Positions 28,884 to 34,019 of a stretch of 45,007 bases of DNA are shown piece by piece (within the stretch, counting starts at the first letter, position 1; each line of letters starts with the position of its first letter). The position numbers and the translations under genes were made by a program. The notes beneath the pieces were generated by a model that worked only from the letters and a program-made list of their open reading frames with translations, was not told the DNA's origin and searched no databases. This stretch comes from Anaerolineae bacterium (lineage in GTDB: Bacteria > Chloroflexota > Anaerolineae > Aggregatilineales > Phototrophicaceae), in NCBI GenBank assembly GCA_023382675.1, contig JAHDWN010000021.1, positions 65,789 to 110,795 of the forward strand, read 5' to 3'.

Positions 28884-30977
28884 ATGCACCTGATCAAGAA
28901 ACAGCAAGAGATTGCCAATGCCCATTTCGACACCACAGTCTTCGCCGAAGGCGTGGCGGGGACAGGTAAAACGACAGCAGCCATCGAGCGCATCAAGAGC
29001 CTGATCAAGTCCGGCGTCTCGGCGGATTCGATCCTGGTGCTGACGCCGCAGGCAACCCTGGCACTGCCTTACCGCACGGCGCTGCGCCGCTCGCGCGTCA
29101 AGACTGCCGCCGACGTGCATACCGAAACGCTCGGTAGCCTTGCTTTCCGCATGGTCGATTTGTTCTGGCCGCTGCTCCCAGACGAGTTTACGCTGAAAGG
29201 TCGCCCGCATTTTCTCACGCTGGAAATGGTGCAGTATTACATGTCACGGCTGGTCGAACCGGAGATTCGGCGACAGGACTACTTCAATAGCGTTCATATC
29301 AGCCGCAACCGTCTCTATACCCAGATTGTCGATAATCTCAATAAAGCTGCTCTGATCGGCTTTCCGCATGAGCAAATCGGTGAGCGATTGAAATCCGCCT
29401 GGCTGGGCGATGTCGAGCAGACCTACATCTATGATGATGCGCAGGCGTGTGCCAATCTCTTTCGTGAGAAGTGCCGCGAATACAACATGTTCGATTTCTC
29501 GCTGCAAGTCGCCCTGTTTCGGGATTATCTCTGGCAACAACAGCCCGTTCGCGTTTATATGACGAAGAAATATCGCCATCTGATTGTGGAAAATATCGAG
29601 GAAGACACGCCTGCGACCCATGAGTTGCTGCGCGAGTGGCTGCCTGTGTGCGAATCGGCGGTGCTGATCTATGACAAAGACGGAGGCTTCCGGCGCTTTC
29701 TGGGCGCTGATCCGGATAATGCTCTCACGTTGAAGGATGTTTGCAAGGTACACGTCGAATTGGATCGCGGGCGGGTGATGTCGCCCGACCTTGAAGCCTT
29801 CCAGATCGCTATCGCGCCTCATCTGGGCGAAAAGAATGGCGCAACACGACCGAAGACAGGCGATCCCAGGGGAGCCATTGCTTACTCGCAAGACACACGC
29901 TACCAACCGCAGATGATCGACTGGGCGGTCGAGCACATCGCGTCACTTGTGCATGACCAGGGCGTGTCACCGCGCGAGATTGTTGTTCTGTCCGCTTTTA
30001 TGCCGGACGCGCTGCGCTTCTCGCTGCAAAGCCGGTTGGATGAGCGCCATGTTCCAAGCCGAACCCACCGTCCATCGCGTGCGCTGCGTGAGGAACCGGC
30101 GGCGCGCGCGCTGCTGACCTTAGCCAGGCTGGCGCATCCCGATTGGGGCATGAAGCCGAGCAAGTACGACGTGACTTATGCCCTGACGGCTGCTATCGCC
30201 GACCTGGATCTGGTACGTGCGCGCCTGCTGACCGATATCTTGTATCGCGATGGGCGGTTGCTGCCATTCGAGCATATCAGCGAAGCGCAGATGCAAAGCC
30301 GGATTACATTCGATCTGGGCGGGCGTTACGATACGCTGCGCGCATGGCTGGATACGTACAGCTCGACATTAGCGCTGCCGTTGGATGTTTTTTTCAGCAA
30401 GCTGTTTGGCGAAGTGTTGTCGCAGCCTAAATTCGGCTTTCATAAGCGCTTCGACGCGGCGAATGTCGCGGCCAATCTCGTCGACTCGGCGCGCGAATTT
30501 CGCCAGGAAGTGGGGAAGATCGAGCCGGATGTACCCGCCGCGCCGGAGTACGTGCGGATGGTCGATGCCGGCGTGATTGCGAATCTTTATGTGCGCGACT
30601 GGGAAGCGGAAAAGCAGGATGCCGTCTTGATCGCGCCGGCTTATACGTTCCTGCTCTACAACCAGCCTGTCGAGTACCAGTTCTGGCTCAACATCGGCGC
30701 ATCAGGCTGGGGGCAGCGTCTCCATCAACCCCTGACGCATCCCTATGTCATGAGCCTCCAGTGGGATGAGAACGCCAAATGGACGGACGCGATGGAGGTC
30801 GTCGCCAGCCAAAAGGCCCTCTACTACCTGATTGCCGGGCTGATTCGTCGCTGCCGCAAAGGCATTTATCTTGGTTACAGCGAGTATGGCGAGCAAGGGC
30901 TTGAACAGCGTGGCCCGCTGCTGATGGCGGTGCAGAACATGCTGCGGCGTTTAGTGCGGGAGGAACGCCATGTTTAG
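28884..30977 (+). CDS. AddB-like helicase-fold protein with degenerate Walker B
   Basis: This 697-residue protein starts with a Walker A in UvrD style (EGVAGTGKTTAAIERI, residues 22-37) and SILVLTPQATLALPYRTAL, like motif Ia. The expected Walker B (DExQD) reads HLIVENIEED near residue 237, with Asp-Glu replaced by Glu-Asn. No motif V or VI (KGLEW, YVGMTRA) is found. The C-terminus instead ends YLIAGLIRRCRKGIYLGYSE. So it probably binds ATP but is not a working helicase, as in AddB of AddAB. It lacks the nuclease part of AddB, which appears to be the third gene of the cassette. GAGG lies 7 nt before the ATG. It overlaps the next gene by 8 nt. It may instead be a regulatory subunit of a new type. 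Confidence 0.8.
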   Translation: MHLIKKQQEIANAHFDTTVFAEGVAGTGKTTAAIERIKSLIKSGVSADSILVLTPQATLALPYRTALRRSRVKTAADVHTETLGSLAFRMVDLFWPLLPDEFTLKGRPHFLTLEMVQYYMSRLVEPEIRRQDYFNSVHISRNRLYTQIVDNLNKAALIGFPHEQIGERLKSAWLGDVEQTYIYDDAQACANLFREKCREYNMFDFSLQVALFRDYLWQQQPVRVYMTKKYRHLIVENIEEDTPATHELLREWLPVCESAVLIYDKDGGFRRFLGADPDNALTLKDVCKVHVELDRGRVMSPDLEAFQIAIAPHLGEKNGATRPKTGDPRGAIAYSQDTRYQPQMIDWAVEHIASLVHDQGVSPREIVVLSAFMPDALRFSLQSRLDERHVPSRTHRPSRALREEPAARALLTLARLAHPDWGMKPSKYDVTYALTAAIADLDLVRARLLTDILYRDGRLLPFEHISEAQMQSRITFDLGGRYDTLRAWLDTYSSTLALPLDVFFSKLFGEVLSQPKFGFHKRFDAANVAANLVDSAREFRQEVGKIEPDVPAAPEYVRMVDAGVIANLYVRDWEAEKQDAVLIAPAYTFLLYNQPVEYQFWLNIGASGWGQRLHQPLTHPYVMSLQWDENAKWTDAMEVVASQKALYYLIAGLIRRCRKGIYLGYSEYGEQGLEQRGPLLMAVQNMLRRLVREERHV

Positions 30978-33198: not shown

Positions 33199-34019
33199 AC
33201 CTGCCCGACGATTTCGTCTTCAGCCAGACGAGCTTACAAGATTACGTCGATTGCCCGCGCCGCTTCGAACTCCGCTACGTGCTGCGGCAGCGCTGGCCTG
33301 CGCCAGAAGTGGACGATATGCTGGAGTTTGAGGCGCGGATGGAGAAAGGCGACCAGTTCCACCATCTTGTTCACCAACATCTGGCGGGGATCGCGGCGGA
33401 GAAGCTGCTTGCCAGCAGCGGCGACGCGGACGTGCGCCGCTGGTTCGAGATGTATCTGGAGACCGGGCTGGAAGATGTGCCGGAACCGCGCCGCCCCGAG
33501 ACGACAATTACCGTACCGTTGGGTGAGGCGATGGTGCTGGCGAAGTTCGACCTGCTGGCAGTGGAGCCGGGCGGGCGGGCGTTGATCGTCGACTGGAAGA
33601 CATCGGAGCGGCTGCCGTCGGCGGAGCGGCTGGCGAAACGGTTACAGACCATCGTCTATCGCTATGTGCTGGCAGCCGGTGGCGATGCTTTTTACGGTGG
33701 ACAACCGATCCCGCCAGAGCGGATCGAAATGATCTACTGGTACGCGGATCATGAGGGGACAACACGACGCTTTCCTTACGATGCCAGGCAGTTCGCGGCA
33801 GATGCGGCGTATCTGGAAGGGCTGGCCAATGAGATCGCGACCCGGCCAGCTTTCCCGCTGACGCCGGACGTAACCCGCTGCCGGTTCTGTCCCTACCGTT
33901 CGCTCTGCGACCGCGGTGTGCAAGCAGGCCGCCTGGAAGAATGGGACGACGACGAGGACGAGATAGACCTCACTACCTTCACCCTCGACATTGACCAGAT
34001 CGCGGAGATCGAATATTGA
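33195..34019 (+). CDS. RecB/Cas4-type PD-(D/E)XK nuclease with Fe-S cysteines
   Basis: This 274-residue nuclease begins FVFSQTSLQDYVDCPRRFEL, the opening of RecB-family and AddB C-terminal nucleases, where the Cys is an Fe-S ligand. The active site follows: HHLVHQH (His), KFDLLAVE (Asp), and IVDWKTSERLP (Asp-x-Lys of PD-(D/E)XK) near residue 134, then QTIVYRYVL. CRFCPYRSLC near residue 228 gives the last three cysteines. Four cysteines in this order hold a 4Fe-4S cluster in AddB and Cas4. The tail is strongly acidic (EEWDDDEDEIDL). ATG 33195 overlaps the helicase stop (ATGA). A start 27 nt upstream is less likely. No other cas gene is present, so it is not a CRISPR adaptation protein. Confidence 0.9.
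   Translation: MNLPDDFVFSQTSLQDYVDCPRRFELRYVLRQRWPAPEVDDMLEFEARMEKGDQFHHLVHQHLAGIAAEKLLASSGDADVRRWFEMYLETGLEDVPEPRRPETTITVPLGEAMVLAKFDLLAVEPGGRALIVDWKTSERLPSAERLAKRLQTIVYRYVLAAGGDAFYGGQPIPPERIEMIYWYADHEGTTRRFPYDARQFAADAAYLEGLANEIATRPAFPLTPDVTRCRFCPYRSLCDRGVQAGRLEEWDDDEDEIDLTTFTLDIDQIAEIEY

Follow-up and report, generated by a model that had tools for sequence, protein, structure and literature searches.

A three-gene cassette for two helicase-like proteins and an Fe-S nuclease

We analysed a 45,007-nucleotide stretch of DNA (henceforth 'the window'; contig C21, positions 65789-110795) from a Chloroflexota genome of the class Anaerolineae (6.4 Mb in 110 contigs, 96% complete). Three overlapping genes on its forward strand (henceforth 'the trio') encode a pseudo-helicase (gene 1), a helicase (gene 2) and a nuclease with iron-sulphur (Fe-S) cysteines (gene 3), together a candidate system for DNA-end resection. 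The genes and their motifs are listed below (SF1 and SF1A denote helicase superfamilies 1 and 1A).

28884-30977, + strand: gene 1, pseudo-helicase of 697 amino acids with a complete predicted SF1A fold and degenerate ATPase motifs (Pfam, AlphaFold2, PDB matches to UvrD, AdnB and AddA/B)
28950-28973, + strand: gene 1 Walker A, GVAGTGKT, residues 23-30, the sole intact-looking ATPase motif (G23, G28 and K29 conserved)
29589-29603, + strand: gene 1 motif II position, E-N-I-E-E (family consensus D-N-x-E-E), presumed catalytic Glu replaced by Asn (alignment)
30970-30977, + strand: overlap of genes 1 and 2, 8 nucleotides, ATGTTTAG (read in the DNA)
30970-33198, + strand: gene 2, SF1A helicase of 742 amino acids with intact motifs and no nuclease domain (Pfam, alignment, AlphaFold2, PDB matches)
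31036-31059, + strand: gene 2 Walker A, AVPGSGKT, residues 23-30 (invariant in 28 rows, S27 excepted)
31714-31728, + strand: gene 2 motif II, DEAQD, residues 249-253 (28-row alignment)
33064-33084, + strand: gene 2 motif VI region, YVGMTRA, residues 699-705 (Y699, V700, T703, R704 and A705 invariant)
33195-33198, + strand: overlap of genes 2 and 3, 4 nucleotides, ATGA (read in the DNA)
33195-34019, + strand: gene 3, stand-alone Cas4/AddB-like PD-(D/E)XK nuclease with Fe-S cysteines, 274 amino acids (Pfam, alignment)
33252-33254, + strand: gene 3 first Fe-S cysteine, C20 (invariant in 28 rows)
33549-33599, + strand: gene 3 catalytic D119 to D133-W-K135 (invariant in 28 rows)
33879-33908, + strand: gene 3 C-terminal cysteines C229, C232 and C238 (C229 and C232 invariant, C238 in at least 90% of rows)

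The overlap of genes 1 and 2 is preceded by GGGAGGA. The longest frame of gene 3 opens at GTG 33168, and a start at ATG 33195 yields the 4-nucleotide overlap. The nearest named relative of gene 1 belongs to an Anaerolineae metagenome-assembled genome (MAG) and is 84% identical.

In gene 1 only the N-terminal UvrD domain scored above the Pfam cut-off (UvrD-helicase, 3.3e-13), with neither UvrD_C nor a nuclease domain matched. The Walker A lysine K29 is invariant in the 32 rows of one alignment and kept in at least 90% of the 56 rows of another, and motif II reads D-N-x-E-E where the consensus of active enzymes is D-E-x-Q-D. N237, E239 and E240 are invariant in 56 rows and kept in at least 95% of 68 (an alignment of near-complete distinct rows only, the window included, from 117 gene 1 hits), and the residue lost is what we take, from knowledge of SF1 enzymes, to be the catalytic glutamate; R656, also kept in at least 95% of the 68 rows, lines up by eye with the arginine of motif VI. 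The AlphaFold2 model (predicted local distance difference test, pLDDT, 90.3) has a complete SF1A helicase fold, for which the best Foldseek E value was 5.7e-24 (UvrD) and the best template modelling (TM) score that of AdnB (0.70), followed by AddA (0.65) and AddB (0.62). VIA-align superposed 614 residues of AdnB at 4.2 Å, 633 of AddA at 4.8 Å and 617 of AddB at 6.2 Å, and gave UvrD a Z score of 30, at 8 Å or more. Profile comparison with hhalign placed gene 2 first (120.7), AddA second (101.4) and AddB third (86.4; the AddA and AddB profiles holding six rows each), genes 1 and 2 being homologous across 550 columns (probability 98.0). Searched against PDB, the gene 1 profile returned UvrD first (1.2e-11), then AdnA (1.5e-6) and AddB (2.1e-4), and the addB model was not matched by gene 1 in NCBIfam. 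By its motifs and predicted fold, gene 1 encodes an SF1 helicase whose catalytic site has degenerated. An origin as a fragment of AddB finds no support in the profile ranks, in which gene 2, AddA and UvrD all stand ahead of AddB, and kinship with HelD (E only 0.0076) or RecD (absent among the matches listed) was rejected.

Gene 2 matches both UvrD-helicase (1.2e-41) and UvrD_C (7.3e-21) in Pfam, and PDDEXK not at all. Motifs I, II, III, V and VI keep their core residues in 28 rows, which makes it a UvrD-like SF1A helicase; its AlphaFold2 model (pLDDT 89.0) has that fold too, with 626 residues superposing on AdnB at 4.6 Å. It aligns with AddA along its full length (hhalign 344.8) and scores 82.9 bits with the addA model TIGR02785, below the cut-off of 707.65.

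Gene 3 matches PDDEXK_1 (PF12705) at 2.6e-30, with 106.6 bits against a cut-off of 22. Ten residues are invariant in 28 rows (H56, E102, D119, D133, K135, Q151, Y155, C20, C229 and C232) and C238 is kept in at least 90% of them; PF12705, the catalytic residues and the four cysteines make this a PD-(D/E)XK nuclease of the RecB/AddB type, its cysteine pattern being that of AddB and Cas4. By hhalign it is nearer the AddB nuclease than that of AddA (72.9 vs 50.5), the nuclease of AdnB ranks first in the profile search (the AdnA and AdnB chains having 1045-1095 amino acids), and the CRISPR Cas4 model TIGR00372 gave 26.2 bits, below its cut-off of 65. In no row of a class-wide gene 3 search did the open frame around it exceed 446 amino acids. 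An original prediction, made from the DNA alone, had described three genes with overlaps of 8 and 4 nucleotides, a first protein with Walker A only, a full SF1 helicase without nuclease and a short RecB/Cas4-type protein with cysteines placed as in AddB as the single nuclease, and in all these respects our results bear it out; it had also proposed a comparison of the 697-residue protein with AddB, which went the other way, UvrD, gene 2 and AddA all being nearer.

The trio is inherited as one unit

We searched the same 199 genomes of the class with each trio protein and detected gene 1 in 109, gene 2 in 111 and gene 3 in 100 of them, as a rule in one copy per genome. Genes 1 and 2 occur together in 107 genomes, gene 1 without gene 2 in 2, gene 2 without gene 1 in 4, and neither in 86; all three genes were found in 94 genomes, exactly two in 18 and exactly one in 2. 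A gene 3 profile matched in none of 37 genomes lacking genes 1 and 2. Of 60 loci with gene 1, at least 35 have gene 2 downstream on the same strand and at least 24 have gene 3 there too, these counts being lower bounds because some contigs end early. The genes are also retained where they are dispersed: in one genome of 3 contigs (G067) they lie at 2.22, 0.20 and 1.03 Mb of contig 1, and in a single-contig genome (G027) at 3.468, 3.480 and 3.598 Mb, gene 3 being about 116 kb beyond gene 2. Retention despite dispersal is strong evidence of obligate partnership. The trio is therefore one functional unit, with near-perfect co-occurrence even when unlinked, in agreement with the earlier view of a cassette acting as a unit.

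A separate observation concerns genus g47 (G041, G119 and G138), in which genes 1 and 2 are present and gene 3 was not found, apart from a weak match in G119 to a fragment that contains two stops; the nuclease gene has apparently been lost there.

A long RecJ is the probable fourth partner

Clustering of the neighbours at 140 gene 1 loci (4 of which were the same genome obtained through two collections and were merged) revealed one outstanding family beyond the trio, a RecJ of about 770 amino acids present in 56 loci; every other neighbour group was confined to at most 13. This family scores 491.8 bits with TIGR00644, against a cut-off of 396.9. Among 75 loci with linked genes, 4 of which were skipped for a short flank, recJ lies on the same strand after gene 3 and within 4 kb of it in 53 of 71, or 52 of 69 distinct loci once duplicates were merged, and within 600 nucleotides in 34. 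By comparison, RecJ is present in 2 of the 63 distinct loci without gene 3. Where gene 3 stands apart from genes 1 and 2, recJ is downstream of gene 3 (gap of -151 to 2318 nucleotides) in 6 of the 21 fetched loci, and was found beside gene 2 in none of 15 loci.

The source genome has two RecJ proteins, of 576 and 754 amino acids. The long one (henceforth RecJ-L), encoded on contig C4 and unlinked to the trio, scores 512.2 bits with TIGR00644 and contains DHH, DHHA1 and RecJ_OB (Pfam) followed by a C-terminal extension of 196 residues with no Pfam match. A profile of this extension, built mostly from RecJ adjacent to the trio and searched against genomes regardless of such adjacency, matched in 82 of the 199 class genomes, 81 of which have at least two trio genes. 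We regard RecJ-L as probably the fourth partner of the trio, one that the original prediction did not contain.

Distribution, inheritance and transfer

Among 400 genomes of the phylum, gene 1 is present in 45 of the 55 of the same class (a figure that assumes the genome list to be ordered by kinship), the weakest best E value being 4.8e-157, and it was not found in the other 345 except for a single weak, partial match (G533; E 1e-16, covering positions 5-300 of the model in a frame of 1049 amino acids), which was not counted as a carrier. In a tree of gene 1, from which 2 of the 60 loci L042-L101 were left out, seven of the ten families with at least two rows form one side of a branch and three (f1, f50 and f22) need two changes. 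With the families and a mixed group of mostly named MAGs as labels, the tree needs 12 changes, compared with 37.2 after shuffling, and none of 200 shuffles was as low. Inheritance of the trio is thus mostly vertical within families and class-wide; of the two alternatives raised earlier for Chloroflexota, housekeeping or a patchy presence near defence genes, the distribution resembles the former.

Transfer beyond the class also exists. Plasmid pSR56 of Salinibacter ruber M8 carries gene 1, gene 2, gene 3 and recJ consecutively, with gene 1 at 39.0% identity (98% covered) and gene 2 at 41.6% (97% covered), and gene 1 annotated as 'hypothetical protein' in its record. In the midpoint-rooted gene 1 tree, the plasmid copy lies within a starred set of 24 rows of the class, with support weaker further in; the labels Fraserbacteria and Limnocylindria in this tree are taken as recorded. 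Ahead of the four-gene cassette on pSR56 (L326:7035-8904) are a regulator of the XRE type and a hypothetical gene for some 200 amino acids, and a gene for a SocA-type antitoxin is located roughly 5 kb upstream from gene 1.

Three MAGs labelled Acidobacteria (L242, L252 and L290) were rejected as a second phylum, their gene 1 nesting in the family of the window; they are probably mislabelled bins. A match on an Ilyobacter plasmid (22% identity, 65% covered) was likewise not accepted as a cassette, because no helicase or nuclease gene is annotated next to it. A clade of very divergent gene 1 sequences (G038, G070 and G136; L091-L093), on a branch of 2.58, comes from genomes with weak gene 3 matches (E 1.5e-16 to 2.5e-13) that also carry AddA, and a changed function is possible there.

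Comparison with AddAB, AdnAB and RecBCD

The source genome encodes an AddA-like protein of 1171 amino acids (addA_Gpos, 444.3 bits) and an AddB-like protein of 1081 (addB_Gpos, 167 bits), each below the curated cut-off and with that model as its best family match. By eye, the AddB-like protein has V199-D200-G201 at the place of motif II (invariant in 6 rows). The two genes lie on different contigs (G000:C4:141228-144740, L162, and G000:C30:12795-16037, L163), whereas their relatives are adjacent in four other genomes (G163, G055, G083 and G191). Across the 199 genomes AddA is present in 60, AddB in 59 and both in 55; the trio occurs with AddA or AddB in 41, alone in 71, AddAB alone in 23 and neither in 64 (p = 0.17). 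A scan with PF12705 (E 1e-10) covered 50 of the trio-only genomes and 13 others; it detects Bacillus subtilis and Corynebacterium and not Escherichia coli, so that it makes AddAB and AdnAB visible and not RecBCD of the E. coli type. Of the 50 trio-only genomes (out of 71), 47 showed no nuclease frame longer than 900 amino acids and three did: G183 and G196 have two such frames apiece and G151 has one, of 970 amino acids. The AddA query (E 1e-50) had missed the AddAB of G183 and G196, and AddAB is therefore undercounted by at least two. Five genomes that are more than 95% complete (G010, a single contig, and G046, G016, G017 and G037) matched neither the trio nor AddAB nor PF12705 (E 1e-10; RecBCD not searched).

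Like AdnAB, the trio has a pair of SF1A helicase subunits; AdnB outscores the chains of AddAB and RecBCD with both models, and the gene 3 profile ranks the AdnB nuclease first. However, AdnA and AdnB each carry a nuclease beside the helicase, whereas genes 1 and 2 have no nuclease domain, and the trio has a separate nuclease protein, one dead helicase and a link to RecJ. With AddAB of the B. subtilis type it shares one active helicase, one degenerate helicase that retains Walker A, and an AddB-type Fe-S nuclease. The differences are that it comprises three or four proteins instead of two, with one PD-(D/E)XK nuclease plus RecJ, that gene 1 is not closest to AddB, and that it coexists with AddAB-like genes; gene 1 also lacks the C-terminal Fe-S nuclease fused to the degenerate helicase of AddB, and gene 2 the C-terminal RecB nuclease of AddA. 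In RecBCD, too, an active helicase is paired with a dead helicase-like protein, in this case RecC, and as a functional analogy RecBC works with RecJ in recD mutants of E. coli. Unlike in RecBCD, the nuclease of the trio is detached, and no significant RecD match was found among the three trio proteins (best E 0.092; the rest of the genome was not searched for RecD).

In the literature searched, which leaves most subscription papers outside it, we found no prior description of the trio or of the four-gene system. Solo-Cas4 has been described for many Chloroflexi, together with an operon of Clostridiales in which UvrD and a Cas4-like nuclease are unfused and which was proposed to act in repair (PMC5704561); by description that operon resembles the trio in its unfused helicase and nuclease, and differs in that neither a pseudo-helicase nor RecJ is named in section 8 of the paper. 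AdnAB was found in Actinobacteria alone within the survey of another paper (PMC6452273).

Proposed mechanism and alternative explanations

The pairing of a dead with a live helicase, the single Fe-S nuclease and the link to RecJ fit end resection, and we consider it likely, though well short of certain, that the trio and the long RecJ form one DNA-end resection machine of the same working type as RecBC, AddAB and AdnAB, with a different layout and probably a separate ancestry. All the parts come from known superfamilies, and from the known machines we infer a working principle that would entail complex formation, a polarity, a choice of strand and RecA loading. Gene 2 would be the motor, moving 3'-5' as do UvrD-like SF1A enzymes. 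Gene 1 would be its dead partner, with P-loop and predicted helicase fold kept and the catalytic glutamate lost, and would probably clamp and guide the other strand like AddB and RecC. The Fe-S nuclease of gene 3 would cut the unwound single-stranded DNA, while the long RecJ, possibly docked through its C-terminal extension, would remove the 5' strand, so that RecA is offered a 3' tail; along the way, linear foreign DNA that is not protected would be degraded as well.

Several findings weigh against this explanation. RecJ was not found in the window, is missing within 4 kb from 17 of the 69 linked loci and is not beside gene 3 in 15 of the 21 unlinked ones; the RecJ-L extension was not matched in 31 of 112 trio carriers, including all nine of family f37, three of f18, three of f40 and four of f6. 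In 13 genomes genes 1 and 2 are present with no gene 3 match, and as the profile recovered it in no more than 3, by partial or weak matches, roughly ten of them seem to have lost gene 3 or to hold it beyond the reach of the search; it may be dispensable in places. The source genome itself carries full-length AddA- and AddB-like genes, a finding that the original prediction had named as one half of what would count against it. Statistically, AddAB and the trio occur independently of each other, so the trio is no simple AddAB substitute; the earlier suggestion that it is the lineage's AddAB or RecBCD equivalent stays plausible where no large nuclease frame was found (47 of 50, in the scan to which RecBCD of the E. 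coli type is invisible). Moreover, the genomes of the class are related and Fisher values therefore overstate independence.

The main rival holds that the system is primarily a barrier to foreign DNA (plasmids, transforming DNA and phages), with repair secondary, and we judge it unlikely though deserving of attention. According to the accessible part of a Synechococcus elongatus screen (PMC10653904), loss of ago, a Cas4-like nuclease, uvrD, recJcy (a recJ paralogue), rpoD2 or a PD-(D/E)XK gene aids RSF1010 transfer or maintenance, and the same six losses also improve natural transformation. By description, three of these genes are of the same kinds as genes 2 and 3 and RecJ-L and share one loss phenotype, as the barrier explanation would have it; in the same account, however, ago, rpoD2 and the PD-(D/E)XK gene, which set S. 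elongatus apart from the trio, share that phenotype (PMC10653904). One cassette is plasmid-borne with regulator and antitoxin-like genes close by, and gene 2 resembles Gabija GajB (among the best 25 of 50 families), whereas GajA was not among the matches of genes 1 and 3 or of seven window neighbours. On the other side stand the mostly vertical inheritance within families, the usually single copy and the class-wide presence. A defence island was rejected, the seven window neighbours giving weak defence matches only in PADLOC (HNH, at best 5e-6, and one methyltransferase, the best, to mad2 at 1.4e-20), and so was a viral origin, as not one of the 37 stretches of viral contigs that match the pattern codes for a relative and a phage search gave no match.

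Two further explanations appear improbable. In one, the trio is a module for replication forks or transcription conflicts, with an accessory UvrD pair and nucleases that act on stalled forks instead of breaks. The best sequence and fold matches of both helicases are indeed UvrD, PcrA and Rep, but a conserved dead partner with an Fe-S nuclease is a layout that, to our knowledge, belongs to end-resection enzymes and not to UvrD-type accessory helicases, and we give the idea little credence even though RecJ and UvrD act at stalled forks as well, as stated in the accessible part of PMC10653904. The other, which was the original prediction, derives the trio from AddAB, with AddB split into genes 1 and 3 and AddA trimmed to gene 2. 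The greater nearness of gene 3 to the AddB nuclease and the lengthwise alignment of gene 2 with AddA speak for it, but gene 1 is nearer gene 2, AddA and UvrD than AddB (by six-row profiles in the case of AddA and AddB) and matches no addB model, gene 3 ranks the AdnB nuclease first, and AddA or AddB coexists with the trio in 41 genomes, which together make such a fragmentation very hard to credit.

If the trio and RecJ-L do form an end-resection machine, DNA-end preparation in bacteria without RecBCD, AddAB or AdnAB gains a concrete four-gene candidate for a large, little-studied class. What we describe is broader than the original prediction, namely a system that probably comprises four proteins and is class-wide and mostly vertically inherited. 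A bolder proposal, which we put forward tentatively and with less than even confidence, is that it would represent a fourth kind of end-processing machine beside RecBCD, AddAB and AdnAB, made of four separately encoded proteins (a dead helicase, a live helicase, an Fe-S nuclease and a dedicated long RecJ paralogue), which would be the principal resection enzyme of many AddAB-lacking lineages within the class, would be transferable as a cassette and would have a cyanobacterial cousin in the Cas4, UvrD and RecJcy proteins of S. elongatus. Such a kinship would offer a frame for the cyanobacterial genes that hinder plasmids and transformation, and the natural four-gene cassette on the Salinibacter ruber plasmid could be moved into laboratory E. 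coli.

Upstream of the trio, the window also contains a gene for a stand-alone HNH endonuclease (26797-27345; HNH_5, 5.8e-14).

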